Of a stretch of 64,000 nt of DNA, positions 9,486 to 26,927 are shown piece after piece. The DNA is taken from positions 1 through 64,000 of the forward strand of contig SCNI01000007.1 in NCBI GenBank assembly GCA_005502775.1, given 5' to 3'. How positions within the stretch are numbered: the first letter of the stretch is position 1; each line of letters begins with the position of its first letter. The stretch comes from Microbacteriaceae bacterium 3FA27C10 (GTDB lineage: Bacteria; Actinomycetota; Actinomycetes; Actinomycetales; Microbacteriaceae). The notes below the pieces were generated by a model. The model was not told the origin of the DNA. It saw nothing but the letters and a program-made list of their open reading frames with translations, and made no database searches. Both the position numbers and the translations under genes were made by a program.

Positions 9486-9615
9486 GTCATCCCCACGCCC
9501 CCATTATCTATCGCGGAGCCACGCTCGCCGGCCGTAACGGAGCGAGCGAAGGGGCGTCGGCAGCGCGAGGAGCGACCTGCGATACAGCTGTGAGCACTCG
9601 CGCATCTGGTGGCTG

Positions 9616-10131
9616 CTACTTGGCGAGCGTTGTACTCACCTCAACAACGTTGATGACATCTGAGTCCCAGCCCGCAACCCCTGCTCCTACGATTTCCTCT
9701 GGTTCGTCGAAATCTGGCTGTAGGTCGGGTAAGCCACTGACATCAGCAAGAAGCAGCCGGCAGTTGGCACCCGTAACAATGAGGGACTCGGTCGCCCGTA
9801 GGAAGTCGAGTGTCAGCTTTGCCTCGCCGTGCCGGCTCGCGAATCGTGATTCCATCACCACCCAAGCACGAGGGCCGTCCGGTTCACTTTGGCCGTTCCA
9901 GCTGAAGGTCCTGACACCGTCAAAGACCAGTATCGCTGTATTGGCGCGAATCGCCAGATCGGCCGAAGCCCGCGCATCAAGCAATACTCCAAGGCGACCG
10001 TGCAGCGCGTCGAACTCCAGCCCAATCATCGTCGTCTCGTATAACGAATCGACGAGGCTCAGGGGGAACGGATCATCGTTCCTTGGAACGTCGAAATCGA
10101 CGTTGGATGTCAGAACCGACCGTAATTCCAT
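9616..10131 (-). CDS. Putative immunity protein, unnamed family
   Basis: A 171-aa acidic protein without signal peptide or membrane segment. The pattern 'Y.TTMIGLEFDALHGRLGVLLDAR' followed by 'ILVFDGVRTFSWNG' and a short acidic C-terminus is one I associate with small actinobacterial proteins found beside polymorphic toxins, but I cannot name the family. GC is lower than in the gene at 8865. It is the outermost gene of a run of immunity-like genes (9616-11885) with no attached toxin. Immunity function is inferred from context only. Confidence 0.6.
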   Translation of the reverse strand: MELRSVLTSNVDFDVPRNDDPFPLSLVDSLYETTMIGLEFDALHGRLGVLLDARASADLAIRANTAILVFDGVRTFSWNGQSEPDGPRAWVVMESRFASRHGEAKLTLDFLRATESLIVTGANCRLLLADVSGLPDLQPDFDEPEEIVGAGVAGWDSDVINVVEVSTTLAK

Positions 10132-10202
10132 ATTGTCACCCTCCTAAGGGAACGTGCGCGTAGGGATCATCCGGTCGCCCGCGCTCGCTCGGGAGCTGCG
10201 AA

Positions 10203-10589
10203 TCACTCAACACCAGCGAGGGCGAGGCCAGCTGCCCGCAGGACGCTCTCCCATCGGTCATCAGCGAGGTATCGCTCATCCGACGAATCTCCCAACTCAT
10301 CGATTATGGGTGCGAGCAAGGCGTTTAGGTCGACAAGCCTATCGATTTCGCCTCCGGCGATGAGCACGGAGCCAACCCGCACTGAGGGAATCGGCAAGAC
10401 CATGCAATCGTCGCAGAGAGTATGGATGTTGGTTGACAGGTCGTCGTAGAAGCCCTCGCTGAGATCGTGCTTAGCCAGCCAGATTGCCTCCTGATATTCC
10501 CGATCGCTTAGGGCAGCAATCACTTCACGTCGCATCTCGGGAAATCGAGGCCGAATCAAGGGGCGCACCAATTTGTCCATCCCTTCCAT
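10203..10589 (-). CDS. SCO4402-family protein (putative immunity)
   Basis: A 128-aa protein matching the layout I remember for the SCO4402 family: 'MRREVIAALSDREYQEAIWL', 'GFYDDLSTNIHTLCDDCMVLPIPSVRVGSVL', and 'YLADDRWESVLRAAGLAL' at the C-terminus. These are small cytoplasmic proteins often coded next to RHS or WXG-type toxins and commonly taken as immunity proteins. The start is ATG at 10589 (or the in-frame ATG at 10580). It lies 40 bp downstream of the Tdi1-like gene on the same strand. Role inferred from context. Confidence 0.7.
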   Translation of the reverse strand: MEGMDKLVRPLIRPRFPEMRREVIAALSDREYQEAIWLAKHDLSEGFYDDLSTNIHTLCDDCMVLPIPSVRVGSVLIAGGEIDRLVDLNALLAPIIDELGDSSDERYLADDRWESVLRAAGLALAGVE

Positions 10590-10629
10590 TCATCAAGGAT
10601 GAATACGATCCGGCCCGCCTTGTCCGGAA

Positions 10630-11229
10630 CTAATCGAGTGAAACCGGCCCAACGGCAGAGCCACCGGGAACGTCACGCAGAGCTAGGCGAAGCTGCCCTG
10701 TGAGGCTCCAGTACACCTCTAGGTCGCTCAGTTCGAGGTTGTCGTCCGCGCCACCCATGAATAGCGGTACGCGGTAGCCGACGCATTGATCAAATCGGAG
10801 AGCGTCGGGATTGCTGTCTTTCCAAGACTCGAAATAGGAAGTCGCAAGAGCAGCCTCACCGAAATCAACTAACTCCTCATCGAGGAAGGAGGCCAAAGAC
10901 AAGGGGATTTCCAGCACTTGGCCTGTGCCGGGTTCGAAAAGCAGGACGCGAGAGCTCGCTTGTGCTCGCGAGCCTTTGTCGAGCGCAAACTGCCGGCCGA
11001 GCCAATCGAATCCGAACAGGTCAGGATTGCGAGCGGCGAACTCAGGGAAGGCCTCAACTAGCATCGCCTTTGCGCTACTAGCTGACTGCACCGAGTGGAT
11101 TCTGTAAAGACCCCCTCCCACAGACAGCCCGCCCCAAGCGGATTGCAGTTCCGGAACTGAGATGTTTCCGTCACGCCCCTGCGGATTCGGCAGCTCCACG
11201 CCGAATGCCGAACGAAATCGCTCCAGCAT
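10630..11229 (-). CDS. Tdi1/DUF1851-type immunity protein
   Basis: A 199-aa protein with the hallmark of the T6SS-immunity Tdi1 C-terminal (DUF1851) family: 'GLYRIHS' (about 63-69), 'FGFDWLGRQFALD', 'LLFEPGTGQVLEIP', then 'CVGYRVPLFMGGADDNLELSDLEVYW'. Tdi1 neutralises a DNA-damaging (GAD/Tde-type) effector in Agrobacterium; here no cognate toxin is seen, so it looks like a retained orphan immunity gene. The ATG at 11229 is chosen because it has a strong GGGGGAG site and clears the upstream gene. An in-frame start at 11355 would overlap Imm35 by 56 bp and adds a non-conserved N-terminus. Confidence 0.82.
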   Translation of the reverse strand: MLERFRSAFGVELPNPQGRDGNISVPELQSAWGGLSVGGGLYRIHSVQSASSAKAMLVEAFPEFAARNPDLFGFDWLGRQFALDKGSRAQASSRVLLFEPGTGQVLEIPLSLASFLDEELVDFGEAALATSYFESWKDSNPDALRFDQCVGYRVPLFMGGADDNLELSDLEVYWSLTGQLRLALRDVPGGSAVGPVSLD

Positions 11230-11299
11230 GTCTCCCCCTATCGAATCGAGAACGGGCCAAAGACCGTGCCCGGGCTGTTGCACGAGATCGGCTTCGCCT

Positions 11300-11566
11300 T
11301 CAGTCCACCTGATCTTCAATCGGTCTGGAATAGGATCCAATACGAATCGAGCCACTCTCTCTATCGACTATCAGCGGCCCGCCACCTGCTAGCGCGAGAC
11401 CAACATCACCCGTATCCATCCAAGTTTGCGAATCATAAGAGACCACCCAGCACTTCCGGAATTCCTGAACCCTGGTCACGACCACGTCACCGGGTGGCGA
11501 CCGCACCATGATGCGGTCCAATTCGCGCTGGGCTATCTCTCGCGCATCGTTCTCATTCATTGCCAT
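11300..11566 (-). CDS. Imm35-family immunity protein
   Basis: An 88-aa protein resembling Pfam Imm35: 'AREIAQRELD' helix, 'CWVVSYDSQTWMDTGD', then 'LALAGGGPLIVDRESGSIRIGS..RPIEDQ', which is the diagnostic 'AG.GP.iVdr.tG' core. Imm35 proteins protect against various polymorphic toxins. The ATG at 11566 is chosen from the domain limits; starts at 11560 or a GTG at 11611 are possible. No toxin gene is attached. It overlaps the end of the next upstream gene by 14 bp. Confidence 0.78.
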   Translation of the reverse strand: MAMNENDAREIAQRELDRIMVRSPPGDVVVTRVQEFRKCWVVSYDSQTWMDTGDVGLALAGGGPLIVDRESGSIRIGSYSRPIEDQVD

Positions 11567-11885
11567 CAGTTTGTCCAACGATTGCTTCTCGAGCAATGGC
11601 AGCGGCTGCACTGTTAGTGACCGGCGACTCGATCGTCGTCCTCATGCCGAGCAGGCGAAGCGTGTCACTCATTGATAACCGTAGCTCCAGATAGCGGCCC
11701 TCACACGAGTACCTCGAGCTCGTAATACAAGTCAGGAGACGTGATTGATCGATCGGTGACGCCGCTCCGCGAGATTGGAGCAGAGCTCCGTTAGGAACGC
11801 TGACCTCGACACCGCCGATCGTCGAAACTACTGGAAAGGTTGGGCTGTGAGTATTCGAGCAGACCCAATAGTGCGCGTATACCAA
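11553..11885 (-). CDS. Small hypothetical protein, possible immunity gene
   Basis: A 110-aa reading frame with coding-like composition ('PVVSTIGGVEVSVPNGALLQSRG'), starting at TTG 11885 behind a GGAG and overlapping the 107-aa gene by 58 bp. No family recognised. If the TTG is wrong, a shorter version from ATG 11670 ('MSDTLRLLG') is possible. Its position between the ART-like cassette's immunity gene and Imm35 suggests an immunity protein or a fragment of one. Low certainty that it is expressed. Confidence 0.45.
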   Translation of the reverse strand: MVYAHYWVCSNTHSPTFPVVSTIGGVEVSVPNGALLQSRGAASPIDQSRLLTCITSSRYSCEGRYLELRLSMSDTLRLLGMRTTIESPVTNSAAAAIAREAIVGQTDGNE

Positions 11886-12151
11886 ATCGAAAACTCCGCA
11901 CCAGGTCGAACATAGGTCACCGCGTCCTGTTGCCAGAATCGCAACTCGACGACGGCGTCTCGGGCCGCTGCAGGCACTGGCTTCTCGTCCGGGGTGACGA
12001 GAATTGCTCCCAGCGAATAGACCTTGCCCGGGTCGCCTAGGAGGGAATACTGGAAGAGCAAGGATCGGCTTTGAGACGCTCTTACTCCAATGAACTCCGA
12101 TTCAGCAATTCCCTTGAAACTCAAAGCCGCCGAGGCGATAGTCCAGCTCAT
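11828..12151 (-). CDS. Cognate immunity protein of the ART-like orphan toxin (inferred)
   Basis: A 107-aa protein beginning 'MSWTIASAALSFKGIAES' and made mostly of predicted strands. No family recognised and no signal peptide. The ATG overlaps the stop of the toxin cassette upstream (ATGA, 12148-12151), the arrangement seen for every toxin-immunity pair in this island, so it is taken as the partner of the ADP-ribosyltransferase-like domain. GC is visibly below the chromosome average. Confidence 0.65.
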   Translation of the reverse strand: MSWTIASAALSFKGIAESEFIGVRASQSRSLLFQYSLLGDPGKVYSLGAILVTPDEKPVPAAARDAVVELRFWQQDAVTYVRPGAEFSIWYTRTIGSARILTAQPFQ

Positions 12152-12885
12152 GGGATGAGCCAGTGATTGGGCACACGGAATATCTGATCGATACCGTCAC
12201 GAACAAAGATTCCACTGGTGCCCTCGACGGTGGAGAGATTCAGAAAGTAACTGTTGTCCACAACCGTCTTGGGAGCCAATCCGGAAGTCAAATAATTCGG
12301 ACTTCCGTAGCCTGGCGTGCGACTCATAAGCTGCCCGTACCCTTCCGCGTCTGAGCGCTGTAGGAAAAAGTACTTTCCTTCAGCGGCATCTCCAACTCTG
12401 TATGCTCCAGTTGCCGCGATATCGTCAGCTTCTGCTTGACTTACTGCACGCCAAATTTGCACGCTCGCCCCATCAATAGCAGATGTAGCTAGCACCCCAT
12501 CGGCGGCGACTGTCGCCGTAGCTGCCGCGCCTGCGCCCTCCGCGGCTGCGGCAGCCCCGATACCGGCAGCGCCGAAGCCTGCGCAGATGCCAACCGTTGC
12601 AACAACACAGGCAATCACGGCGATCGCTGCCACAGCGATGAGCGCTCCGATTCCGACAGCGCCCCAGTCGATGTTCCCAAGCTTTCCTGTGCTGGTATTC
12701 AGCGCTTGCTGTTTGCCGTACTTTGAGATGCTCGTGCCCGATGATCCAGTCGCGTGGCCACCACGAGCCGTCGAAGGTTCCACACCGCCCGAGACATGAG
12801 GTGCTCCACCGCCCGCTGCCGCTGGACTTGATGTAGACACGCCCGGAATAGCGTCTGGTCTTGTGCCATCAGAGCAGTTCGTCAC
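12148..12885 (-). CDS. Orphan RHS C-terminal cassette with ART-like toxin domain
   Basis: A 245-aa displaced RHS C-terminus. Residues 1-45 match the linker after the RHS core of the full-length protein, about 45-125 repeat its hinge nearly residue for residue ('SKYGKQQALNT', 'GNIDWGAVGIGALIAVAAIA', 'CVVATVGICAGFGAAG'), and 135-245 are a different toxin domain. That domain has 'VQIWRAVSQAEADDIAATGAYRV', 'GKYFFLQRSDAEGYGQL' and a C-terminal 'IDQIFRVPNHW', a layout I associate with ADP-ribosyltransferase-type RHS toxins; catalytic residues cannot be assigned safely. It begins at a fortuitous GTG with no signal peptide, so it is probably silent until recombined onto the full-length gene. Confidence 0.7.
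   Translation of the reverse strand: MTNCSDGTRPDAIPGVSTSSPAAAGGGAPHVSGGVEPSTARGGHATGSSGTSISKYGKQQALNTSTGKLGNIDWGAVGIGALIAVAAIAVIACVVATVGICAGFGAAGIGAAAAAEGAGAAATATVAADGVLATSAIDGASVQIWRAVSQAEADDIAATGAYRVGDAAEGKYFFLQRSDAEGYGQLMSRTPGYGSPNYLTSGLAPKTVVDNSYFLNLSTVEGTSGIFVRDGIDQIFRVPNHWLIP
12535..12790 (-). repeat. RHS hinge copy in the ART-like cassette
   Basis: This block repeats the hinge DNA of the full-length RHS gene (16496-16750) in the same orientation. The upstream half (from the palindrome-free 'gatgttccc' stretch through 'gatgctcg') is almost identical, while the hydrophobic-segment half has many synonymous changes. The identity is therefore mosaic, consistent with gene conversion. Confidence 0.85.
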
Positions 12886-12923
12886 GGTTGAGAAGTGACC
12901 CGCAGAATAGACGTCACCTGCAT

Positions 12924-12963
12924 GGAGCCGTCGTAGCTATTGGACGAGTCGAGCTGCCCCTTC
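12924..12963 (-). repeat. RHS-core remnant
   Basis: About 39 bp that match the full-length RHS gene at 18294-18332 with roughly five differences, translating on the minus strand to GQLDSSNSYDGS. It lies just upstream of the orphan cassette, far closer than the equivalent segment in the intact gene. It is the scar of an older, internally deleted rhs copy. Confidence 0.7.
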
Positions 12964-13016
12964 CTCATACCCAACATGCCAAGCATGCCACTCAATCGAT
13001 CACCGCCAGTATCAGC

Positions 13017-13319
13017 TCAAGTCAGGATGCGCAGGACCCGATGATAGGCAGCTTCAAGATCGTCTTTTCCAGAAATGACCCAGTGCTCCTCTATCTCCAC
13101 ACCGGGTTGGTCGAACCTGACGCCTTGAACCGCCGCATCGCCGTCCGACCAAACCACGAGGCGACTTGACCCTCGATCGGACTCCCAGTCCACCCACATT
13201 GCATTGGGATTGTTACCCACCGGTCCGCGCGCGACTTTCCAGCTGATGTTGGTATCCCCCTGATGGCCTCCCACTTCGCTGAGATATTGAATAACAAGTT
13301 CAAACAAGAGATCCGTCAT
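13017..13319 (-). CDS. TriTu-like immunity protein
   Basis: A 100-aa protein: 'LLFELVIQYLSEVGG' helix, then 'VARGPVGNNPNAMWVDWESDRGSSRLVVWSDGDAAVQ' and a closing helix 'SGKDDLEAAYHRVLRIL'. This matches the general pattern of the TriTu immunity family, the partners of TreTu toxins. The ATG at 13319 overlaps the TGA of the toxin frame by 4 bp (a longer start at 13334 is possible). The pairing with an upstream TreTu-like domain is strong mutual support. Expected to bind and block the toxin in the cytoplasm. Confidence 0.75.
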   Translation of the reverse strand: MTDLLFELVIQYLSEVGGHQGDTNISWKVARGPVGNNPNAMWVDWESDRGSSRLVVWSDGDAAVQGVRFDQPGVEIEEHWVISGKDDLEAAYHRVLRILT

Positions 13320-13912
13320 TTCGTCCTCAACCACTGAATGTTCTGCGCCGGAGGCATTTCAGTTACGCCCAATCCGTTCCGACCCCAGAAAGAGCTCGGT
13401 CCCCTAATCGCCGCGTGAGCAATGTTTCCCGCTTGTTGAAGAGTGTCCGAAGGAACGTCGAATTCCACGTACCGTGCACCTGGAGCCGCTTGCTTCATCC
13501 ACGTTGCTGGATCTGCGGGTCGTGCAACGTATGTCATTCCTGAACCTCCTTCCTGCACTGTTCTTGTCTCTATCATTGCTTCGTACTCGGATTGCCCCAT
13601 CCAACGTCCGACAGTGGTCCATTCGCCCGAACCAGCAAGGAGATCCCCAGCAGACTCCGATGCGGCAGTCACTACGCCTGCGGCGGCCACGCCCTCGGCT
13701 ATTGCAGCTGCACCCTCGGCAGCGGCCGCAGCCCCAAGGCCCGCTGCGCCGAAGCCCGCACAAATTCCCACTGTCGCGACGACACAGGCGATCACGGCGA
13801 TCGCTGCCATGGCGATGCGCGCTCCCATCGGTCGCGACCTCCCCGGCCACACCGCTGCGGGTTGGCCGCTGAGATAGCGGCGCAGGATGATCTGGTGCGT
13901 GCGGAATGCCAC
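13316..13912 (-). CDS. Orphan RHS C-terminal cassette with TreTu-like toxin
   Basis: A 198-aa frame. Residues about 28-66 are the RHS hinge ('IAVIACVVATVGICAGFGAAGLGAAAAAEG') and about 95-198 a toxin domain reading 'VGRWMGQSEYEAMIETRTVQEGG', 'TYVARPADPATW', 'ARYVEFDVPSDTL' and 'EMPPAQNIQWL'. This is the pattern of TreTu, an ADP-ribosyltransferase that modifies elongation factor Tu. The first 27 residues come from unrelated DNA joined to the hinge, so the ATG at 13912 is probably not a natural start and the cassette lacks secretion signals. An immunity gene follows with ATGA overlap. Likely a reserve toxin module rather than an independent effector. Confidence 0.75.
   Translation of the reverse strand: MAFRTHQIILRRYLSGQPAAVWPGRSRPMGARIAMAAIAVIACVVATVGICAGFGAAGLGAAAAAEGAAAIAEGVAAAGVVTAASESAGDLLAGSGEWTTVGRWMGQSEYEAMIETRTVQEGGSGMTYVARPADPATWMKQAAPGARYVEFDVPSDTLQQAGNIAHAAIRGPSSFWGRNGLGVTEMPPAQNIQWLRTK
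13713..13830 (-). repeat. RHS hinge copy in the TreTu-like cassette
   Basis: This segment matches 16496-16613 of the full-length RHS gene with no visible difference over its first 95 bp or so and only two or three near its outer edge. Both copies code for the hydrophobic hinge directly before the toxin domain. Homology ends abruptly at about 13830. Confidence 0.9.
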
Positions 13913-14125
13913 CGCACGCGCACCATGGTGTACCCGGCCTCACGGAGCTCTTGGGCGGTGCCCCGAGCGAGCCGTTGGCCAGGGCCTTCGGGGTGGCTGC
14001 CAGCCGCCAGCGCCTCGGTCGACAGACACGATCCGGGTGGGGCGTTCCTTGGTACAACCGAGACCTTTCCCAGTCGGTCGCCCAACCGGAAGAGCCTGTT
14101 GAACCCCGAGTCTCGGCCTTCATCA
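13831..14125. other. Unassigned GC-rich block between two RHS cassettes
   Basis: About 295 bp with higher GC than the flanking cassettes and no homology to the hinge or to either toxin. All three minus-strand frames are open over part of it, but none has a recognisable domain, and no terminal inverted repeats are visible. It may be the remains of a mobile element or of another toxin gene. Nothing firm can be said. Confidence 0.5.
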
Positions 14126-14485
14126 CTATCGCATCAGTTGCCCGTTCGGGTCCTTGAGAATAGTTTTGGCGTCAATTGAGTCGGCAGTCTCCAGCAGGCC
14201 GGCCTCTCTTGGAGAGAGGAGAACGCCTCCGTCATCGCCCGCCACCGTAGTACCAGCAGCCATCTTGCCGCGGGCAGTCAGTCCGGCCCCGGCTCCTACT
14301 GCTGCAGTATCGACCGCCGCGGCAGTCCTCAGACCCCCTGCCCCAACACCAGCGCAAATGCCAACGGTCGCGACGACACAGGCAACAACGGCAATCGCAG
14401 CGGCGGCGATGAATGATCCGATTCCGGCAGCTGGGTCGTTGACCGCAGACCCGATGCTAGTCTCAATGAGACAAGAATGTGCATG
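14126..14485 (-). pseudogene. Decayed RHS C-terminal cassette (hinge plus truncated tail)
   Basis: A 119-codon open stretch without a start codon at its head. It encodes a diverged hinge ('GIGSFIAAAAIAVVACVVATVGICAGVGAGGL') followed by about 60 residues ('KMAAGTTVAGDDGGVLLSPREAGLLETADSIDAK', ending 'DPNGQLMR') and a stop at 14126. The tail is too short for a toxin and has no immunity gene behind it. The hinge is the most diverged of the four, so this is probably the oldest cassette. Listed as a remnant. Confidence 0.75.
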
Positions 14486-14582
14486 TCATGCTCGATCAAA
14501 GTAGCTCCCCGTCGCATGAAGGAAATCGGGGAGGCTATTGGATCACCTCTCCATAAAGTCTTCCGAAAAGCGAGGAGGGTCG

Positions 14583-15488
14583 ATGGGCCTCTTTAGGCGT
14601 CGAGACCCTGCCCCTCAACCGTCAGATCGTATTGCGTGGATTACCTTCATGGCCAGGCAAGCTCTTGCTGAACGCGGAATAGAGACCACAGTCGAGCACG
14701 GGCAGAGTTTCGAAGACGTCACGCTCAGAGCAAGTGGTCAAGAGCGCTTCCCTTTATACAACGTGATTGCAAAGACGGCAGGTGCATCGGCCGCCGACGC
14801 GACCCGAGTCATCGGGGCCCACTTCGACAGCCTTATGTCCAGGGTGAGCGCTTCCGAGATTGAAAAGCTCACGGCAGACCAGCTCAGGCAGCGCGTCAGA
14901 ACTCGTCTCTTGAACGCTAGCGATGTTGAGCACGACCAATCCACGCTGCGATACGCTCGCGAGTTCTCTAGCGATCTCGTCCTGTCCCTTTGTCTGGATT
15001 TCCCGGATACGGTAGTGATACTCAGCGATGAGAACGTTCGTGGTCTGGCTTTGGACGTTGATGAGCTCTTCGTCTTCGGTCAACACAACACTGACCGCGA
15101 ACCGGTTACCGAGCGATTCCAGCCCGCGCCTGGGCTTAACGTCGTCGTGGGAGATTCGCTCTTCACAGCGTCGAAGGCCGCAAATCTCCCTGCACTTCTC
15201 GGCGCGGCTCGCTTTGGCACGTTGTTTACTGTGCCTCAGCGCCATCTATTGATCGCCTTGCCCATTACCGGCGCGGACGCCAGCATGGCGTTGGAACAAA
15301 TGATTGGCGCGACGACGAATATGCTTAGCGCGGGGCCGGTTCCTGGTGGGATACTGTCACCGAATGTGCACTTTTCTAGGGGCGGCCACGTTGATTGCGT
15401 TTCGTCAATCGACGAGGGCGGGCGCATCTCACTGCTCATGAGCGAAGGGCTACAGAAAGCCCTAGATGATTCAGCCCGTCGCTTGTAG
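14583..15488 (+). CDS. Hypothetical protein (DUF1444-like?), opposite strand within the toxin array
   Basis: A 301-aa cytoplasmic protein on the plus strand while all surrounding island genes are on the minus strand. The start ATG has a strong GAGGAGGG site. The pattern 'IAWITFMARQALAERG', 'LVLSLCLDFPDTVVILSDENVRGLALDVDELFVFGQHNT' and 'GTLFTVPQRHLLIALPI' recalls proteins of the DUF1444 type, but the match is weak. It separates the intact RHS toxin-immunity pair from the orphan cassettes. It could be an immunity protein or unrelated cargo; function unknown. Confidence 0.65.
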   Translation: MGLFRRRDPAPQPSDRIAWITFMARQALAERGIETTVEHGQSFEDVTLRASGQERFPLYNVIAKTAGASAADATRVIGAHFDSLMSRVSASEIEKLTADQLRQRVRTRLLNASDVEHDQSTLRYAREFSSDLVLSLCLDFPDTVVILSDENVRGLALDVDELFVFGQHNTDREPVTERFQPAPGLNVVVGDSLFTASKAANLPALLGAARFGTLFTVPQRHLLIALPITGADASMALEQMIGATTNMLSAGPVPGGILSPNVHFSRGGHVDCVSSIDEGGRISLLMSEGLQKALDDSARRL

Positions 15489-15560
15489 CCCAAGTCAATA
15501 CACGATGCGAAAACTGGCGCAGAGGCTAAGCCATGCACTGCGTACGTGATCGGAGGATGC

Positions 15561-16094
15561 TCATGCCCATCCCTCATGGAGGCGGACGGTGTCAACGATC
15601 AACGTGAGGTTTACTCGCTCCTTCCTTATGCATCGATGCCCATAGCCCACCAATATGGCGTCAAAATCGACATTGAATTTCTTGTTTGCTGTCTTGGAGA
15701 AGCCCATGACCACCGGGCGCTGATACGCGACATCTTTCCTCCCCCCGGTAAACATGCGCCATTCCAATCCGGCATGTCTCATTACTAGCAAGTCGCCGAG
15801 GTACAGACCGAGATCATTCGCAAACGAGTACCACTCAGGCAGCATACGATCCGGCATCGTCGCACTGGGTTCCACTTGAAGGCGATACCAGTCGTTTATC
15901 TGCTGAAGTTGCGCATCACTGGAACCGAGCGTGAGCCCATTGCATTTCAGAAGATCGCCAAGAAACTCAATTCTACTTTCCTTCGTAGCTATGGTTCGTT
16001 CAAAAGCCGCCTGGGCTTGGGTGCGACTCGCATACTGAAGCACTCCCGCGGGCCCCGGGTCGTAGACTGCGTATGCGCCCCACTCAACCGTCAC
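15561..16094 (-). CDS. Cognate immunity protein of the RHS nuclease toxin (inferred)
   Basis: A 177-aa protein whose ATG overlaps the stop of the RHS gene by 4 bp (16091-16094), so it is translated directly after the toxin domain. Visible parts: a short beta N-terminus ('MTVEWGAYAVYDPGPAG'), a helical middle, and 'EWYSFANDLGLYLGDLLVMRHAGLEWRMFTGG', a pattern I have seen in unnamed immunity-like families but cannot name safely. Cytoplasmic, no signal peptide. Expected to neutralise the PD-(D/E)XK-like domain. Low GC for the genome. Confidence 0.75.
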   Translation of the reverse strand: MTVEWGAYAVYDPGPAGVLQYASRTQAQAAFERTIATKESRIEFLGDLLKCNGLTLGSSDAQLQQINDWYRLQVEPSATMPDRMLPEWYSFANDLGLYLGDLLVMRHAGLEWRMFTGGRKDVAYQRPVVMGFSKTANKKFNVDFDAILVGYGHRCIRKERVNLTLIVDTVRLHEGWA

Positions 16095-19000: not shown

Positions 19001-22000
19001 GGTCTGGGTCTGTACTTGCCGTCCGAGTCCGTCGTAGAGGACGTAGGAGGTGACTACCGTCGATCCGACGAGATTCGTCGTGGCGATCGTGCTCGGTGCG
19101 CTCTGCGACAACGTGTAGGCATAGCCGATTGAGGGACTGCTCGGATTGCTGGCCTGCGCCCGGCCGGGAAGCCAGGCCGCCGTTCGCCGCCCAAGCGCGT
19201 CGTACGTCGCGGTCGTTGTCTTCCCGTTCTCGTCGATCGACTGCGTCTCGACGCCCCACGCGGGGTTGAAGTCCGTGGTGCGTGTCCAGCTCTTCGGATT
19301 AGTGGTCACTGTGCGGGTGAGTGGCCCACCCGTGGCGGGCGTGTAGGCGGTCGTCGTGACGTGCCCGAGGGCATCGGTCACCGAGGTCGGGCGTCCAATG
19401 GAGTCGTAGGCGGTTTGGGTGGTGGTGGCATAGTGCGCCGTGGAAGCGGTCGTGCCGGAGTACGAATCGGCAGTCTCCGTTTTCGTGACGCTGCCGACGG
19501 TGGGCATGGCACCCCACGTTCCCCCGTCGTAGGTGATCTTCGAGTCCGTGATCGCTGCGGCCGGATAGACCGCCGACGCCAACGATCCGCACGCCACTCC
19601 GATCTGCTGGGTCTGTTTCGGCAGGCCGATCAGCCACGCAGATGTATTCGCCGGCGCATAGTCGGTCTTTGTGCAGGTAGTTCCGGCGTCACTGTTCACA
19701 CGATTCACGGTTGTCGGGTACCCGTAGCTCGGGTCGTGATCGGTGTGCGTTTGAACGGTTCGGTTGCCGCCGGTGGAAACCGGCTGATTCACGGTGACGT
19801 CGCCATCGCCGGTCATCCGTGCTGTCCTGGAGCCGTCGTTGGCGGACACCGCGGATGCCCAGGGGGTGTTGATGGTGTCGCTTATGACGGCCCCGCCGAC
19901 CCCGTTGAGCACTTTGGCCTCTTTGGTTCGACCCGCGAGCCACCGCGAGTCGGGCTCGCCAGCGAATCCGGTGACGCTCACGCTACGGTGGGCACCGGCG
20001 GTGTTGGATTGGTCGCCGTCCATGCCCTGGTAGAACACGTATTGGGTGGTCTGCTGCGCGGAGGGTGTGGCGGGATCACCGACGTGGATCTCGACCTTGT
20101 CGTAGCCGGCATAGTCGGACCAGGTGCGTCGACCATCCGGGGTGAGCGGATTGATGTCATACCGCCACGCAGGATGCCCCATGTATTGATAGTCGGTCTC
20201 AGTGAATGTGTCGTTGCCGCCACCCGTATGTGGGTCTGCCAGAACCGATGAGACGACGTACTTGTGGAACAAGTCCAGGCGCGGAGCCGTCGGGTAGGCG
20301 ATTTGCGGGGTCCACCACTGAGGGAAGCAACGCGAGGTGTTCGTTTCTGGTGTTGCCAGAATCGCGGCCGCGTTGTCCTTCGTGCATTCCTGAGGAAGGT
20401 AGTTGACACTGATGATGGCGCCGGTCGAGGTGGTGATGGAGCGGATCCGCCACTTGTCCAGAGGTGCAAGCCCGTCGATGACCCAGACCCGGTTCTGCAT
20501 CGGAGTCCCCGCGAAAGTGGTGTCAGGCTCGCTGATACTCGAGCCGCCCGAGGTGCCGGTGTGACCGATCTTGGCGAGCCAGAGCGCGGGGCTGGTTGCG
20601 TCGCCGGGATCGGGGAAGGTGTGACTCAGCGTCCAGGTGTCAACGTTCGAGTAGCCGCCGCCGATGAATGCGCTCGTCGTGATCGTGTTCAGCATGCCCG
20701 TGGTCCAGAACGTCGGCGAGATCAGCCCTGTGCATGTGGCGGTGCACAGCTGGTCGAAGGGCACGTCCGGGTACGCGGTCGGATGCGCCGGCGCGGTCGC
20801 CGGGCTGGTGATCGTCTCAGTTGTGCAGTTGGCGTGACTCGTGTCGTTGCACCGCCCAAAGGCGTCATATCCGAAGCTGACCCGATCGGTCGCGGCGTTG
20901 CTGCCATAAACCGTGGAGGCCGTCAGACCGTAATCGATGTGATCGAGCTGCCCACCGCGGATGTACGAGGTGACCGTGGTGCCGGCAGCGAGATACTTGT
21001 TGATTTCGGTCGTGTAGTAGAACGCTTCCGCATTGTTGTGGGTGTCGACGACGTAGTCGAGGTTCCACCGCCACGCCTGCATGCAGCTCGACGAAGCGAA
21101 ACTCCCCGTGTTGCACGGCTCGCCCCCGTCATTGCCGAAGACCGGGACCGTCCAGGTTGAGCCGGTCGATGCTTTGCTGCTGTCCCACCCGGGAAGGTGA
21201 TTGAGGCCGAAGTAGTACTGCGTGCCGTCGGTGGTAGTCAATCGCCAGCAGTCGGTGTCGTACGTGCCGTTGGACTGGCATCCCTGGCCGGTTCCGATGA
21301 GGTGCTCGATACGAGAGCCGTCGTCGCTTTGCAGCTTCCAGGCTCCGGTCGTGGAGTCTCGGATGAGTTGACCGGAATGGCCGCCGAAGGAAATCGTTGC
21401 GTTGTCCGTCTTCCAGCACAGGTCCCCAGAGCTCTGGACGGCGCCCCCGTGCTCGGTGTCCGTGGCGCAGCTGGTGTAGGAGCGCTCGATGAATCCGCCG
21501 CCCGTCAGCGACCAGCCCTCTCCGATGGCGGAGGGCTGGTTGTTCGTCGATGCCGTTTCGCCATCGACGGATTGCGAGTTGTAACTGAGGGCGAGGCTCG
21601 GCGCGGGCCCACCGGGCGCTGGCGGCGTGCGGAGGGGGAAATCCCAGGCGAAGGCGCCGGTTTGCGCGGACACGTCCCACCCGGTCGCGGCAGAGAGCGG
21701 TGTCGCTGCAAACGATCCCGTGCCGGTCGACGAAACAGGAGCTCCACTCGCCACCAAGAGGGTTGAGGCGCTGGACACCATCGGTGTCACCACAGTCGCT
21801 GACTGCGTATTCGCCGTCGCCAAGGGTGCAGCCGTGCTGGCGTCCTTCTTGGCGTTTCTGGTGTCTGACTGCTGCACCCACTGCACGCGCTCAGCGAACC
21901 CCGCACCATACAGGCTTGTGAGCAATGAGTCGTCGATCGAGACAGCAAGCGGAGCCGTATTCGTGTCACCATCCGTGCGCGTGAGTCGGATCGCCAGTCC

Positions 22001-22732
22001 CTTGACGCCCTCCTTCTGCTGCTCGCCCGCATCGAGGATTTGCGCCGACACGGTCGACACCGCCGGCGGGTCGGTGGGCGATGCGGTGGGGCCCGGTGTG
22101 GCGCTATCTGTCGGGCTGGGAGTGGGTGTGTCCGGGAGGGTTAAGGGACTTGGGGTGCTGTCCGTCGGGACCGGCGTTGGAGTCGTGGCTGCATCGGTAG
22201 GGAGAGGAGTAGACGGTGGCGTCGTTGACTCGAAAAGCGAACGCGCTGCCCTTGGGGCCGGCGCGATTCCGTCATTTGGGGACGTTGCTGGGCTTGCGCT
22301 TCCGGCCGATTCGGTGACGGCCGCGATCGAGATAGGTGTATCGGCGACGGGCACCCATTCCCCCGTGACCTGGACGTCGCCGGCGGCGCTCTTCGCTACC
22401 GGGCCAGCCTGCACTGGCTGCGTGGGAACATCAACGGTCTGCGGGTCTGATGGAAGCGCTACGTCGGTCGGAAGTGTCGCAGTGGCGTCAGAGGAGCTGT
22501 CGCCGGGGGCGGCGACATCCGACGCAAGCGTGCCGTCGACCGGGACGCCGAGAAAAGGGACGGGAGCCGCACCCCCCTGCGCGAACGCGGGCGCGCCCGG
22601 CAAAATTGCGACCGTCAGGACGACCGACGCGACCACCGCGACCGACTGAATGACCGTCCTCGAGGACTTCAGGACACGATGACGCTTCACAATTGCTCCA
22701 ACGATTGAGATGACGGCTCGGGTGCTGTTCAC
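16091..22732 (-). CDS. Secreted RHS-repeat polymorphic toxin with PD-(D/E)XK-like nuclease C-terminus
   Basis: A 2213-aa protein with a Sec signal peptide (hydrophobic 'VAVVASVVLTVAI', cleavage after 'APAFA', about residue 51), a Pro/Thr/Ser-rich stretch (about 165-225), long RHS/YD-repeat regions (about 360-1860), an RHS core signature ('LGARAYDTSIGKFLSVDPV', about 1905-1925), a Ser/Gly linker, a hydrophobic hinge (about 2040-2080) and a toxin domain (about 2090-2213). The toxin domain has 'RRLDVL' (Asp2140) and 'STEAKVG' (Glu2150, Lys2152), fitting the D-x(n)-E-x-K active site of restriction-like nucleases, plus 'QIAKDVEL' and a 'GK.GPTGPL' tail. ATGA overlap with the upstream gene. No T6SS genes are seen; export is probably by Sec. 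Confidence 0.9.
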   Translation of the reverse strand: MNSTRAVISIVGAIVKRHRVLKSSRTVIQSVAVVASVVLTVAILPGAPAFAQGGAAPVPFLGVPVDGTLASDVAAPGDSSSDATATLPTDVALPSDPQTVDVPTQPVQAGPVAKSAAGDVQVTGEWVPVADTPISIAAVTESAGSASPATSPNDGIAPAPRAARSLFESTTPPSTPLPTDAATTPTPVPTDSTPSPLTLPDTPTPSPTDSATPGPTASPTDPPAVSTVSAQILDAGEQQKEGVKGLAIRLTRTDGDTNTAPLAVSIDDSLLTSLYGAGFAERVQWVQQSDTRNAKKDASTAAPLATANTQSATVVTPMVSSASTLLVASGAPVSSTGTGSFAATPLSAATGWDVSAQTGAFAWDFPLRTPPAPGGPAPSLALSYNSQSVDGETASTNNQPSAIGEGWSLTGGGFIERSYTSCATDTEHGGAVQSSGDLCWKTDNATISFGGHSGQLIRDSTTGAWKLQSDDGSRIEHLIGTGQGCQSNGTYDTDCWRLTTTDGTQYYFGLNHLPGWDSSKASTGSTWTVPVFGNDGGEPCNTGSFASSSCMQAWRWNLDYVVDTHNNAEAFYYTTEINKYLAAGTTVTSYIRGGQLDHIDYGLTASTVYGSNAATDRVSFGYDAFGRCNDTSHANCTTETITSPATAPAHPTAYPDVPFDQLCTATCTGLISPTFWTTGMLNTITTSAFIGGGYSNVDTWTLSHTFPDPGDATSPALWLAKIGHTGTSGGSSISEPDTTFAGTPMQNRVWVIDGLAPLDKWRIRSITTSTGAIISVNYLPQECTKDNAAAILATPETNTSRCFPQWWTPQIAYPTAPRLDLFHKYVVSSVLADPHTGGGNDTFTETDYQYMGHPAWRYDINPLTPDGRRTWSDYAGYDKVEIHVGDPATPSAQQTTQYVFYQGMDGDQSNTAGAHRSVSVTGFAGEPDSRWLAGRTKEAKVLNGVGGAVISDTINTPWASAVSANDGSRTARMTGDGDVTVNQPVSTGGNRTVQTHTDHDPSYGYPTTVNRVNSDAGTTCTKTDYAPANTSAWLIGLPKQTQQIGVACGSLASAVYPAAAITDSKITYDGGTWGAMPTVGSVTKTETADSYSGTTASTAHYATTTQTAYDSIGRPTSVTDALGHVTTTAYTPATGGPLTRTVTTNPKSWTRTTDFNPAWGVETQSIDENGKTTTATYDALGRRTAAWLPGRAQASNPSSPSIGYAYTLSQSAPSTIATTNLVGSTVVTSYVLYDGLGRQVQTQTPAPGSGTAVTDTGYDTAGRVNFTNNPYWASGATPSAQLFVPGSQQNISSSVRTTFDGAGRTTATILQSFLNEVSRTSISYSGADRVDTTPPAGGTPSTSYTNSLGQQTKLTQYLASTPSPTATQKTTAYSYNVQGKMTKMVDPAGNTWQWSFDVLGHQTQAIDPDAGTTTNSYDVLGNLITSTDGRNVQTFYTYDLLNRKTAQYSGSSATGSLLADWTYDTAAKGQLDSSNSYDGSTAGMPGKKYSQTVVGYDDGYRPTSTTVAIPAGAPAFAGSSFTTSYTYTAAGDLQTAVYPAEGNLPAETVRYSYGATGLLNTIRNGLGQMLSGTVYTSIGQVAQYTRSNGNVQDISTYEYDLATAATSRIMETTVVGSTFTTVADRTYTHDAAGNVTSAKTTGNTTTDTQCFKYDSLRDLTEAWTPSSNSCSTAPTATALAGPAPYWNSYVVDPATGNRTSATLHGVGSAASTTETYSYPAAATARPHAVSTVTRVTGATTITNSYGYNGAGMTTTRPGQTIAWADTGKLSKVTAGTATESSVYDASGALLIRSNSNGGGTTLYLGDTELNVANGGAAASATGIRTYMANGTPVSERAGSTMSWITTNLNGTSDLRVTTDNGTVVRRYVDPYGMSRTASPPVWSSPHGYLNAPTSTLSGLTQLGARAYDTSIGKFLSVDPVLSPSNPQQNNGYTYSSNNPVTMSDPSGLCPTGIMANPACKDGTPGNGLGVVTSADPSAVAGTPPAAGGGTSHVAGGGGPSTARGGHPTGSSGTSISKYGKQQALNTGTGKLGNIDWGAVGIGALIAVAAIAVIACVVATVGICAGFGAAGLGAAAAAEGTAAGAATAEAVELADASVASASRLAANQVAGNAARDAIASRAPDSLTEVTMQTTLGVRRLDVLSSDLVSTEAKVGLTSLTSSVRLQIAKDVELRATGKVSESVWEFFRSNVTGKVGPTGPLRNELESNSIRIVE
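16496..16750 (-). repeat. RHS hinge, resident copy
   Basis: DNA coding for the Gly/Ser linker and hydrophobic segment that precede the toxin domain of the full-length RHS protein. Three further copies lie downstream at 12535-12790, 13713-13830 and about 14330-14440, each joined to a different C-terminal sequence. They are natural homology arms for swapping toxin modules. Confidence 0.88.
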
Positions 22733-25700
22733 GGGGTGGAGTGGTTCTTCAAGTTGTCGAGCTGTCCCGTGTTAACGACGCCCGGGAAGATCGTCACATC
22801 CGAGATCAGACCGTCCCACATGTTCGTCCTGCACCCGTTCGTGACAGACGAGCCGATCGAGAGTGTCCCGTTGGCACTTGTCTCTCCCGAAGGAGTCGAG
22901 TGCCTGTGGACTGCTGCAGGATTGATGTCACCGTTGAGCAGAAGTCGAGCCTGATGGTTCACGGAATCCCAGATGCCCGTGACGAACTTCCAGTCCCCGT
23001 TCACAACGTTCGCCGGCGATTCCGCACAATCCGTAGCGAGCGTCGCTTGCGAGCGGACACAGAATCGGTACTGCCCGGACGGTGTCGTCTGCAAGTAGAA
23101 GCCAGCCGACGTCGAGCCGCCTTGAGAGGCGATGGTGTGATACATGCCAGTGGCCGTGGTGTTCGGTTTCACCCACGCTGAGACGGTGTAGCTTTTCGTG
23201 GTATCAACCGCTGGTCCGTTGAACGAGTGTCCCTGGGGATCCACGAAGGTGTCGTTGGTTTGCACGGCCTGAATATCGGCCGCATATCCGAGGATGTAGT
23301 CGTAGTGCTGGCCTTCGCAGTTCGCCAAATTGCTGTCGAAATGGTCACCGCTCGCTGTGACCGAACATCGGTAGATCGTCTTATGCTGTGCCGGTGCCGC
23401 CGCCTCGGTGTTCCACAGCCACCCGAGCATCACCGAGGTCCCGCTGACGCCCTCGCACGGCCCGTATCGGGTGGTGAATTCGTCGCCGCCCGTCTGAATA
23501 CACGAGAAGATCTTGTGCATGTTCGCCGGAGCTGCACCCGGGTAGTCGGCCAGGATGTGGCCGACCATCGACTCCACGTGGAAACCCGCCGGCATCGTGC
23601 CTTCCAGCACCGCCATATGTTGGCTACCGACAACTCGGTCAAGCGCCGCGTAGCCCGGGAAGGTCACCGCTTGGACGCTATCGACTTCCTGGCCCAGCCC
23701 GGTGACTGTTGGAGTTCCGACGTACCCCGAACCCGGGATCTCAGCCAATTTCTTCGTATACATGCTGGTCGAGGAGCTCGAATTCCGGTCAGGAAGAGAG
23801 GACGGCACGGTCATGGTGCTCGAGAAGTCCGGTCCCATCCAACCGTGGCCCTTGGTGTAAGTCATGTCCCCATCTGGCCCGCTGTAGACGGAAACAGGGC
23901 TGCTAGCGACAGTCTGGTCCGCGTTCAGTGAGGTATTTCCCGCCGCGTCGATCGTCGCGACATGCAACGTGGAGGTTTGATCGACCGGGGCTGTACTGAG
24001 GGTGAAGTGGTTGGTGCCATCGGGGCAAGCGAACTGAACGATTCCCGCGGTGCTCCCGCACGCCGGAAGGACATCTGTGAAGGCAACGACAGGCACCTCA
24101 GTCGTCGACGTCGGCGCACTGGCCGGGAGCGTCCACCAATATTCCAGCCGGGCAACATGATCGACCGGGTTGGTGGTGACCGGCACTGACAAGGCGTGAC
24201 CGACTGTCCCATTCAATGTCCCCGTCGGGACCGTCGGCAATCCGGGTGCCGTCCAGTCAGCCACGAAGTAACAGATCAAGTCACCCGACGTGGCACCGGC
24301 ACCATCCTGTGTCGTCACCACCATCGCAAAGAACCCCTCTTGGTTCAACACGATATCGCTGGGGTTCTGGACGACTCCCTGTGCGATCGGGCCCACAGTG
24401 ATGGGGGTGATGACGTTGATGGACCCATTGCTGGCTTGCACGATCCGGAACTTCGCGTAGATGTTATCGGGGTCTGGGTCCGTGAAGGTCGCGTACATTC
24501 GCAGGGAAGCCCGAGGGTTGATGTAGGTTGGCGAGCTGCTGCTTGTGCTGCATCCACGCGGAGGCGCCGAGAAGCCCGCATTGGTGGGCGTATTCGGCCG
24601 GCTGTTGAACTTGATCTGCAAGGTCGCGCCGAGGTTGAAGCGCTTCCACGAGTACGTGTCGTCTTCGTGCTGGGCGCGAAGCGCCAGCACAATCTCCGGT
24701 TGGCCAGCCTGCGCAATGGCCGCCACGCCCGCGGTCGCATTGAAACCGAGCGGCCCCGACCCGCCGCAGTAATCGGCCTTGGCCGCATATTGCGTGTCCA
24801 GTGGATTGTTCGGCCAATCAGAGCTCGAGTTACTCGCCCCAAAATACTGAACACCCCCCGACTGATTCCAGGTCGATCCCGCTCCTGGATTGGTCGTCCG
24901 ATAGAGCTGAACACCGGTCGCGTTGCAACTGGCGCTCCAACTCTCGTAGGTATTGAAATGCGCCTCGATAATCTGCTTATTTGCGACGGCAGCAGTACTC
25001 ATCTGCCAGAACGAGATACCCAGCTGCGCAAGGCCATCACCCGAGTGCGGCGCTGTCCATCCAGGCTGGAGGTATCCGACGACCTGGTTGCCGCGGCCGT
25101 CACTGTCCTCAGGCACGTTCAAATAGCTCGTATTGGGATACGTCTTGTTGATACTCCACGCGTTGAGGTTCCCCGCCGTCCAGTCGGGGTCGATATACAG
25201 CGGGTATTTGACCGAGGAGTCCTTCGCGACAGAGGCCACATCCACGGCGACGGTGTCGCCACTCGTGATCATGGAATCAACTGGCTGCGCCACACCATTT
25301 CCGCCCGGGCCATCCGGACTGGCGTCAGCGAGCGTCGAGTCCCACACGTGCGGTTGACTCGAACGGAGCATCGTTTCCGCATCGACAGCGGTGACCGCGG
25401 GCGTTCCTGTTCGCGCCGATGGTCGAGCAAAGCCCTTTGAGGCGGTGGTAGCCGCTGCGACCGTCCCGCCATTGGGGCCTGCGGCAATCGCCGCCCCGGA
25501 GATCTTGAGGTCGAGAGTGGCGAGCCGCGGGTCAGCGATTGCGTCTGGGGATTTCACGATCACCACTTCGGCCATGCCGGTTGAAGTCGCGGTCAGCCGA
25601 AGATCGACATCGGGGATGACCTCCGAGTATGTAGCGGAAGCCCCATCCACTGCTGGCGTCGGGAGGGAACCCAGATCCCAGCTTTCGCTGAACCATTCGC

Positions 25701-26388
25701 CCGTCGGAAGTTGAATCTGGGCGATGGGTCCCGTGCCGCCATCCGAGAAACGAACCGGAACGACGGTCGCGGCGGGAGCGATGAAGCCGGCGTCAGCGGA
25801 ACCGAGATTGGTGTCTACGTTGACCCAACCGGTGTCCTGTTGGACGCGGACCGGGATGGAGGAGGAAGTGAGCTGGAACGTTCCGTCGGGAAGGGCTTCG
25901 ACCAGGGTGGTTTCGGTTGTTTGGCTGTCGACGACTACGTTGTGGCCGTTTGCCTGGGCGATCTGCGAAGCATCCGATTGGGTGGATGCACTTGGCGCGT
26001 CAGGCTTGGGCGGTGGAGCTTGTTGATCTTGCGGAGTCGGTGTTGGAGCTACCGGCTCGGGAGCCGTCGGGTCCGCAATCTGAAATGGCGGCGCAGTGGC
26101 AGCGTTATCCTGGGCGATTGCATCCGGCGACTCCGGCTGATCCGTCGCCGTTGGCGCGTCAGTCGGCGTCTGACCTTGCGTGTCACCGACAGAGCCGGCT
26201 GGCGTCGCGTTCGGATCGCTGGCGGACGCTGATGGCTGCGCCGTCTCGGCAGGTCCATCCGCAGCCGCGGAAGTAGTCGGACTGGGGGTTGGCGTCAACG
26301 CCCATGACCCAGAGACACCAAGTGACAACGCAAGCGTAGTCAAAATGACAATAGTGACCGCAACAAACCCACGGCGACGTGAAGACAC
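22729..26388 (-). CDS. Secreted DNRLRE/LamG-type protein, partner of the RHS toxin
   Basis: A 1219-aa exported protein: signal peptide ('VAVTIVILTTLALSLGVSGSWA', about residues 9-30), a Pro/Thr/Ser-rich region (30-150), a beta-rich domain of the kind found before RHS proteins in actinobacteria ('YPLYIDPDW', then 'DSDGRGNQVVGYLQPGW' and 'EAHFNTYESWSASC', DNRLRE-like, about 395-560), Ig-like segments, and a C-terminal LamG jellyroll (about 1045-1215; 'SYTVSAWVKP', 'DWKFVTGIWDS', 'ARLLLNGD', 'GLISDVTIF'). GTG start with AGGAG site. Its stop overlaps the RHS ATG. It probably accompanies the RHS shell at the cell surface; a carbohydrate- or cell-binding role is inferred from LamG. Confidence 0.85.
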   Translation of the reverse strand: MSSRRRGFVAVTIVILTTLALSLGVSGSWALTPTPSPTTSAAADGPAETAQPSASASDPNATPAGSVGDTQGQTPTDAPTATDQPESPDAIAQDNAATAPPFQIADPTAPEPVAPTPTPQDQQAPPPKPDAPSASTQSDASQIAQANGHNVVVDSQTTETTLVEALPDGTFQLTSSSIPVRVQQDTGWVNVDTNLGSADAGFIAPAATVVPVRFSDGGTGPIAQIQLPTGEWFSESWDLGSLPTPAVDGASATYSEVIPDVDLRLTATSTGMAEVVIVKSPDAIADPRLATLDLKISGAAIAAGPNGGTVAAATTASKGFARPSARTGTPAVTAVDAETMLRSSQPHVWDSTLADASPDGPGGNGVAQPVDSMITSGDTVAVDVASVAKDSSVKYPLYIDPDWTAGNLNAWSINKTYPNTSYLNVPEDSDGRGNQVVGYLQPGWTAPHSGDGLAQLGISFWQMSTAAVANKQIIEAHFNTYESWSASCNATGVQLYRTTNPGAGSTWNQSGGVQYFGASNSSSDWPNNPLDTQYAAKADYCGGSGPLGFNATAGVAAIAQAGQPEIVLALRAQHEDDTYSWKRFNLGATLQIKFNSRPNTPTNAGFSAPPRGCSTSSSSPTYINPRASLRMYATFTDPDPDNIYAKFRIVQASNGSINVITPITVGPIAQGVVQNPSDIVLNQEGFFAMVVTTQDGAGATSGDLICYFVADWTAPGLPTVPTGTLNGTVGHALSVPVTTNPVDHVARLEYWWTLPASAPTSTTEVPVVAFTDVLPACGSTAGIVQFACPDGTNHFTLSTAPVDQTSTLHVATIDAAGNTSLNADQTVASSPVSVYSGPDGDMTYTKGHGWMGPDFSSTMTVPSSLPDRNSSSSTSMYTKKLAEIPGSGYVGTPTVTGLGQEVDSVQAVTFPGYAALDRVVGSQHMAVLEGTMPAGFHVESMVGHILADYPGAAPANMHKIFSCIQTGGDEFTTRYGPCEGVSGTSVMLGWLWNTEAAAPAQHKTIYRCSVTASGDHFDSNLANCEGQHYDYILGYAADIQAVQTNDTFVDPQGHSFNGPAVDTTKSYTVSAWVKPNTTATGMYHTIASQGGSTSAGFYLQTTPSGQYRFCVRSQATLATDCAESPANVVNGDWKFVTGIWDSVNHQARLLLNGDINPAAVHRHSTPSGETSANGTLSIGSSVTNGCRTNMWDGLISDVTIFPGVVNTGQLDNLKNHSTP

Positions 26389-26701
26389 CCAGTTACTCCT
26401 GCATTACGGGTGTGGTCCCGTTTCCCCCTGTCCCTCCCCCGAGCGACATACCTGGACGGTAACTTCATAGACGCAACTGGGGCAAATCGAAACCGCTTCT
26501 TTTCATCATTTGTTAACAAAGCGAGATTGAGACTCAAAGTCCCAATCCTCGATTCACCGTCGATCTGATTCCTTCCGCAAGCGACTCCAGAGTTGCTCGC
26601 TCGCAAGCCGCCCTCGCGAAGACTCTGATCAAACTCCTTCAAGATATGAGGCTGTCAGAGATGTCAATTTCGGAGCTCTGCCGAACGGCGGAGATACATC
26701 A
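26389..26701. promoter_or_regulatory. Upstream region of the RHS operon
   Basis: 313 bp without a credible gene. It holds the AGGAG ribosome site for the GTG at 26388, an AT-rich stretch, and a 12-bp perfect palindrome TTTGTTAACAAA at 26509-26520, the only such AT-rich palindrome noticed here, which may be an operator. The promoter of the two-gene RHS operon should lie here; no clear -35/-10 pair can be fixed. Confidence 0.4.
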
Positions 26702-26818
26702 GACGACGTTGTGCGGCGCATCATCGGCGCCACCACTGGGCAGCTCCTCCGCGAACTCACCCTCGACCCCACCAAGAACTACCAACCCCTAGCAACACGA
26801 AAACCCCCGAACCAATAG
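26702..26818 (+). pseudogene. C-terminal remnant of an IS481-type transposase
   Basis: 38 codons in the plus strand read as the tail of an integrase-type transposase: 'GATTGQLLRELTLDPTKNYQP' matches the 'ATGELLRELTLDP..DYQP' end typical of actinobacterial IS481-family transposases. The rest of the gene is missing and there is no start. It sits between the toxin island and tRNA-fMet, a sign of past insertion at this border. Confidence 0.75.
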
Positions 26819-26830
26819 GTTCAGGGGTTT
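26801..26830 (-). terminator. Rho-independent terminator downstream of tRNA-fMet
   Basis: Inverted repeat with a 13-base arm at 26801-26813 and its complement at 26818-26830 (one mismatch), a 4-base loop, and a short T run on the minus strand. It is 21 bp past the 3' end of the tRNA gene and overlaps the end of the transposase remnant. Confidence 0.75.
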
Positions 26831-26850
26831 CCTCTGTCCCGAGAGGACAT

Positions 26851-26927
26851 TGGTTGCGGGGACAGGATTTGAACCTGCGACCTCTGGGTTATGAGCCCAG
26901 CGAGCTACCGAACTGCTCCACCCCGCG
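26851..26927 (-). tRNA. tRNA-fMet (CAT), CCA encoded
   Basis: 77-nt gene with anticodon CAT, cloverleaf arms intact, T-loop GGTTCAAATCC. The unpaired C1 opposite A72 and the three G-C pairs at the base of the anticodon stem mark an initiator tRNA. The 3' CCA is encoded, unlike in the second copy at 37289. Confidence 0.95.

Follow-up and report, generated by a model that had tools for sequence, protein, structure and literature searches.

We analysed positions 1 to 64,000 of contig SCNI01000007.1 (the window) from the 4.0-Mb genome of Microbacteriaceae bacterium 3FA27C10, which is placed in the genus Herbiconiux. On the minus strand lies an operon that runs from the gene of a LamG-domain protein (26388-22729) into that of a full-length polymorphic toxin of the RHS type (22732-16091) and then into an immunity gene (16094-15561), followed by a bank of gene fragments and small genes that extends to 9616. 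An earlier reading made from the letters alone (the sequence-only reading) had described this bank as a recombinational reservoir of toxin ends for the RHS gene, and the full-length toxin and other features that it named lie where it had placed them, on the minus strand. The features are listed below in the order of the minus strand, with E values (E) for matches; G and L numbers are our handles for the genomes and loci compared.

26851-26927, minus strand: tRNA-Met directly upstream of the operon (ARAGORN)
22729-26388, minus strand: LamG-domain partner, 1,219 aa (Laminin_G_3, E 1.6e-18)
16091-22732, minus strand: full-length RHS polymorphic toxin, 2,213 aa (TIGR03696 Rhs_assc_core, E 1.7e-13; RHS_repeat PF05593, E 1.6e-10)
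16474-16780, minus strand: resident hinge, the pre-toxin region with a hydrophobic stretch (blastn to A, B, and C)
16091-16423, minus strand: resident toxin end, a suspected nuclease (D...EAK motif by eye; matches in G076, G212, and G070)
15561-16094, minus strand: resident immunity gene (4-nt overlap with the toxin stop, GTGA; DUF6278 below cut-off)
14538-15488, plus strand: gene of unknown function on the opposite strand, after the resident immunity gene and before cassette C (no Pfam family above cut-off)
14126-14485, minus strand: orphan cassette C, a remnant (hinge 14431-14310, 76% over 122 nt, E 3.9e-21)
13316-13828, minus strand: orphan cassette B (hinge 13828-13704, 95% over 125 nt, E 3.3e-42), then a TreTu toxin end
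13017-13319, minus strand: TriTu-like immunity gene of B (overlaps the toxin stop, ATGA; PF24689, E 6.4e-5, 23.2 bits, under the cut-off of 27)
12925-12963, minus strand: RHS-core scrap upstream of A (39 nt, 90% to resident core 18332-18294, E 5.9e-7)
12148-12885, minus strand: orphan cassette A (hinge 12819-12510, 83% over 310 nt, E 1.8e-80; toxin end 12465-12148)
11828-12151, minus strand: immunity gene of A (overlaps the toxin stop, ATGA)
11300-11563, minus strand: orphan immunity gene, Imm35 (PF15567, E 5.4e-13)
10630-11355, minus strand: immunity-like gene with a Tdi1-type C terminus (PF08906, E 3.5e-4, below cut-off)
10203-10589, minus strand: SCO4402/DUF7945 family gene, a possible immunity gene (NF047838, E 1e-29; PF25656, E 4.1e-10)
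9616-10131, minus strand: small gene, a possible immunity gene (open frame with an ATG start; no Pfam match)

The RHS protein contains both RHS/YD repeats and the Rhs-associated core, as TIGR03696 and PF05593 were both above cut-off. It is probably exported through the Sec pathway, judging from a hydrophobic, signal-like stretch ending in AFA that was spotted by eye at its N terminus. The LamG partner of the sequence-only reading was borne out by its domain match, and among 13 relatives whose genera we take to belong to the Microbacteriaceae, tblastn matches that extend beyond residue 1000 of this protein lay upstream of the RHS gene in 12, with L015 as the exception. The resident toxin end had no Pfam or NCBIfam match above cut-off and yielded a poor structure model. 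Its tail recurs in a 92-aa frame of G212, another member of the family (51% in 41 aa), where the next gene matches the resident immunity gene (32.5% identity, 166 aa, E 1e-23); an RHS gene was absent among the frames viewed just upstream of this G212 tail. Because toxin tail and next gene were kept together in G212, the gene at 15561-16094 appears to be the cognate immunity gene. The RHS ends themselves are putative toxins.

The resident hinge was used as a blastn query to find orphan hinges, and hinge sharing between the resident gene and cassettes A, B, and C is far beyond chance. All three truncated ends that share DNA with the main gene sit downstream of it on the same strand. The three hinge-sharing cassettes of the sequence-only reading were thus recovered, but only A and B also have a toxin end with an adjacent immunity gene (a linked immunity gene for two of the three orphans). 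The proposed same-strand bank of toxin modules likewise stood in part: the cassettes are on the minus strand, but the gene at 14538-15488 (matched in 18 of 298 other genomes of the family) is on the opposite strand, and the stretch 9616-11563 consists of four immunity-like genes and holds no toxin cassettes. In all three toxin/immunity pairs (resident, A, and B), the two genes overlap by GTGA or ATGA. The end of B matches TreTu_C (PF24691, E 2e-27) and the structure PDB 7zhl (E 5.4e-21, residues 4-98 of 103), and the end of A is predicted to have an ADP-ribosyltransferase-like fold.

Base composition agrees with the lower value that had been noted for the locus, with a GC content of 0.608 across 9600-26850 and 0.580 in the orphan bank, against 0.714 and 0.706 in the two flanks. 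Between C and B, GC content is raised at 13832-14125, where no gene was recognised; this stretch may be a remnant of another insertion. A 44-nt repeat (13005-12962 and 11681-11639; 77%, E 0.003) precedes the core scrap and the Imm35 gene, respectively, and its copy at 11681-11639 may derive from the tail of another toxin end that has been lost. Elsewhere in the same genome, a weak fifth hinge match was found on C20 (E 2.4e-4, one internal stop).

Except for the one core scrap, the shared DNA lies in the hinge, past the DPSGL motif, and its pattern is uneven. Resident and B share an exact tract of 98 nt, at 16593-16496 in the resident gene and 13809-13712 in B. Between resident and A, 7 differences were found in 155 nt inside 16720-16566 and 40 in 136 nt outside, a contrast that was reached by none of 300 site shuffles and none of 300 codon shuffles. 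Fourfold sites follow the same division, with 5 of 31 differing inside the tract and 25 of 32 outside. Over the 97 codons of the hinge compared between A and the resident gene, 33 differ synonymously and 10 non-synonymously. This codon pattern fits divergence within a working protein, and A therefore probably entered as a foreign allele, rather than as a recent copy that later decayed.

The comparison took in 53 loci: 51 named ones that encode related RHS proteins, plus the window and G006. A usable core end was available in 46 loci (all except L021, L025, L053, L054, L058, L061, and L062) and a usable toxin end in 44, with L040 and L045 left out because their ends are cut or lost; L009 was excluded as a duplicate of L042. 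The cores were 32 to 56% identical to that of the window, and the C terminus after DPxGL varied between relatives: grouping the 44 resident ends by their last 110 aa at E 1e-3 gave 39 clusters. G012 and H. daphne L042 carry the same RHS C terminus.

Orphan ends of the window are resident elsewhere in some cases. The A toxin matches the end of a full-length RHS protein in Blastococcus L016 (40% over 70 aa, E 1.6e-9), and the A immunity gene matches L016 16002-16205, which adjoins the end of the L016 RHS gene at 15904 (33% over 72 aa, E 2e-7). By homology, then, the A toxin/immunity pair is the counterpart of the resident pair of Blastococcus L016. A-type ends are also C-terminal on large RHS frames of G307 and G048, with weak E values (5.3e-4 and 9.1e-4); a third A-type match in the family (G018, L065) was rejected because it sits inside YD repeats. 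For B, the sole known case of a resident end is that of Salmonella, from PDB 7zhl and 7zhm and as described in the available text of PMC10469887, and the end of C was resident on no full-length RHS protein found. The sequence-only reading had staked its model on resident ends that differ between strains and on orphan ends that match resident ends in relatives; in our comparison across species, resident ends did differ, and A was matched directly, B through Salmonella only, and C not at all, so that at this level, and for A, the model was not refuted.

Scars of the same kind were counted in other loci, using 42 loci with at least 1,500 bases downstream (329,652 bases) and, as an upstream control, 41 loci with at least 1,500 bases (216,521 bases). 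Same-strand copies of the resident gene at 75% identity or more were found downstream in 6 of the 42 loci (the window, G006, L013, L015, L022, and L059) and upstream in none of the 41, and the window had the most orphan hinges among the loci compared. In Luteimicrobium xylanilyticum (L059), the orphan spans 306 aa of the core at 91% (1,285 nt at 83%). A transposase-like frame, noted by eye, lies between this orphan and the main gene. An independent case is G048, in another genus of the family: its RHS protein is a different one, and its orphan bears another end and a hinge repeat of 211 nt at 99%. The displacement in G048 is evidently young, going by this identity, and some modules are thus young. 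Displacement of ends at the hinge is well supported.

The observed basis for an interpretation is the anatomy of the locus, the hinge DNA that is shared, a module that is resident in one genus and orphaned in another, and a DNA pattern expected of past recombination. On this basis, we consider it quite probable that the locus as a whole is an RHS locus with a replaceable end, with displaced modules downstream and orphan ends that possibly return to the shell. The RHS shell would remain constant, and the C-terminal toxin with its overlapping immunity gene would be replaceable. New toxin/immunity modules would be acquired from other bacteria and enter by recombination at the hinge, immediately past the DPSGL motif, and the old module would be shifted downstream together with a hinge stub and its own immunity gene. 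Repeated rounds would have left B (TreTu type), A (ADP-ribosyltransferase-like fold), the decayed C, and, behind them, a series of immunity-like genes that perhaps still guard against toxins from outside. An old end could then be restored to the shell if the resident hinge recombined with an orphan hinge that is intact. Of the recombinational reservoir first proposed, it holds that the orphans are displaced RHS modules, that resident ends differ, and that the A pair is resident in Blastococcus; the return of orphans to the shell, that is, the use of the bank as a reservoir, is a step that we infer and is unproven.

Several observations weigh against this explanation. The hinge of the window occurred in none of 397 other family genomes searched, hence no donor was found, and no TreTu turned up in 305 other genomes of the class; one weak TreTu match in the family, the only one (G294, E 4.5e-5, one internal stop), was unconfirmed. 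In Salmonella, the main gene and the orphan are reported to share 522 bp at 95% (PMC3967940, available text), and the tracts here are shorter (B, 98 nt exact) or more diverged (A, 310 nt at 83%). Scars were found in only 5 of 41 relatives, those of L015 and G006 being just 30 and 53 nt, and L059 also had an opposite-strand copy downstream, the only one found, with none upstream. C is decayed; no Pfam family scored above cut-off for its end, and an immunity gene was not recognised downstream. Further, resident ends were compared at the species level, with one strain for the window's own species. Since C is decayed and the hinge is absent from the 397 other genomes, the same anatomy is also fitted by an account in which the orphans are displaced ends heading for loss that play no further part, the immunity genes alone being kept as protection. 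This account shares the displacement step with the explanation that we prefer and differs from it only on later use, and their odds overlap; we put it at somewhat below an even chance. In its favor, C survives as a remnant with no immunity gene recognised beside it, decay is suggested by the core scrap at 12963-12925 and by the scraps of L013, L015, L022, and HERB6 (G006), and the four immunity-like genes at 9616-11563 have no toxin ends. However, the frames of A and B are open, the B toxin domain is full-length, both cassettes have overlapping immunity genes, and the G048 orphan hinge, at 99% to its main copy, argues that some modules are young.

Two further alternatives concern parts of the evidence. 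The identity step between A and the resident gene could reflect uneven constraint on DNA or codons and not recombination. The comparison of C with the resident gene shows a weaker step at the same boundary and in the same direction, with 2 of 10 fourfold sites differing inside and 11 of 14 outside, and this counts against recombination as the whole cause, because uneven constraint could then explain part of the A tract. It leaves unexplained, however, the 98-nt exact match of B, which crosses that boundary, and we regard uneven constraint as an unlikely account of the step. The orphans might instead act as toxin-antitoxin pairs inside the producing cell, expressed from internal starts as in Salmonella rhs orphans, where main and orphan ends are reported to be transcribed from internal promoters (PMC7043789, available text). 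The B frame could begin at the ATG at 13828, which is preceded by GGGGAGG (by eye), but inspection by eye showed no ribosome-binding site ahead of A, and a scan limited to the sigma-70 consensus gave 2 promoter-like sites in 11200-16800, both on the plus strand, against 2.0 expected. We consider such a role in the producing cell improbable, slightly more so than uneven constraint.

A tRNA gene on the same strand lies upstream of the RHS operon in 4 of the 46 loci, namely, the window (tRNA-Met), Leifsonia L020 (tRNA-Met), H. daphne L042 (tRNA-Val), and Plantactinospora L026 (tRNA-Lys). In L042, an exact 51-nt direct repeat, composed of the 3' half of tRNA-Val plus 8 nt, lies at 4978-5028 and 16182-16232 around an 11.2-kb LamG-RHS-immunity operon. 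Within this bracket, no frame of more than 500 aa was found beyond LamG and RHS, and a 53-aa frame follows RHS; none of 6 frames scanned inside and just past the bracket matched an integrase. The L042 repeats suggest, by their sequence and placement, the two ends of a tRNA-targeted element. In Leifsonia sp. CL147 (L020), the tail of the upstream tRNA-Met (5726) recurs near 16825 downstream (18 nt exact, 22/25). In the window, no second copy of the tRNA 3' end was found beyond the operon (best, 15/25 nt within 12 kb), and blastn with the tRNA gave no match in the window except a second full tRNA-Met upstream. The two tRNA-Met copies (26851-26927 and 37288-37362) are identical over 75 nt, on the same strand and 10.4 kb apart, and their identity ends at the gene ends. 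From the repeat scan, the results for the window, L042, and L020 were used; it is invalid for loci in which the RHS start is near the locus end (G006, L046, L028, and possibly others).

The hydrolase that flanks the operon is kept in 15 of 16 genomes of the genus and the downstream gene in 5 of 16. Among 13 regions around the flanking hydrolase, none had a tRNA-Met and one had a tRNA-Ala about 12 kb off. An island boundary could not be set for the window by synteny; tblastx was swamped by high-GC noise. In Herbiconiux G006, no tRNA was found in the 16 kb that span the upstream side. Further downstream than the G006 RHS gene and the small genes that follow it lies a tyrosine integrase gene (L010 8210-9331; PF00589, E 7.9e-20). 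We offer it as a tentative idea, more doubtful than not, that in this group the LamG-RHS-immunity operon as a whole is an integrative, non-autonomous element with tRNA genes as its insertion sites. Once seated, it would keep growing through recombination at the hinge, and weapon and antidote bank would move and diversify together; the window copy beside tRNA-Met would have lost or outgrown its far end.

The locus belongs to a known kind, described in enterobacteria and in Streptococcus suis, and its own features are the LamG partner and the placement of the shared DNA in the hinge. In the portions of the published accounts that were available, orphan modules were proposed as a reservoir in 2011 (PMC3150448), the Salmonella main gene and orphan were reported to recombine across their shared DNA (PMC3967940), standalone cassettes were described across phyla in 2012 (PMC3482391), and orphans of the Sec-type Gram-positive RHS protein WapA of S. 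suis were described in 2025 (PMC12704120). The last of these makes outdated the view that such orphans are known from proteobacteria only. As in the window, the orphan ends of enterobacterial rhs-CT/rhsI systems occur on full-length genes elsewhere (PMC3967940 and PMC3150448, available text), whereas the window protein is actinobacterial, is probably Sec-exported, has a LamG partner, and shares DNA past DPSGL, in the hinge, save for one core scrap. The S. suis system resembles the window in being Gram-positive, with a Sec-type RHS protein and truncated downstream duplications with immunity genes; it is from another phylum, and a LamG partner is unmentioned in the available text (PMC12704120). 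Salmonella TreTu/TriTu (PDB 7zhl and 7zhm) resembles B in that a TreTu domain is followed by a TriTu-like gene, although TreTu forms the end of the main Rhs effector in Salmonella (PMC10469887, available text) and the actinobacterial copy is an orphan. Polymorphic toxin loci share with the window swappable C-terminal ends, multiple immunity genes, and a range of phyla that includes actinobacteria, but a LamG-RHS operon is not described in the available text of PMC3482391. In the literature searched, nothing pairing Herbiconiux with Rhs was found, and among the matches listed for RHS with Actinobacteria, with Streptomyces orphans, or with Microbacteriaceae, no title describes this locus, a judgment made mostly by title.

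These results extend orphan toxin-module banks to an actinobacterial RHS protein, with DNA-level signs of exchange at the hinge just past the RHS core, and they include one toxin/immunity pair that appears as resident in one genus and as orphan in another. The window, G048, and Luteimicrobium xylanilyticum are loci in which the re-use of orphans is testable, and the tRNA-bracketed copy of H. daphne points to a way, open to testing, in which such operons may spread.

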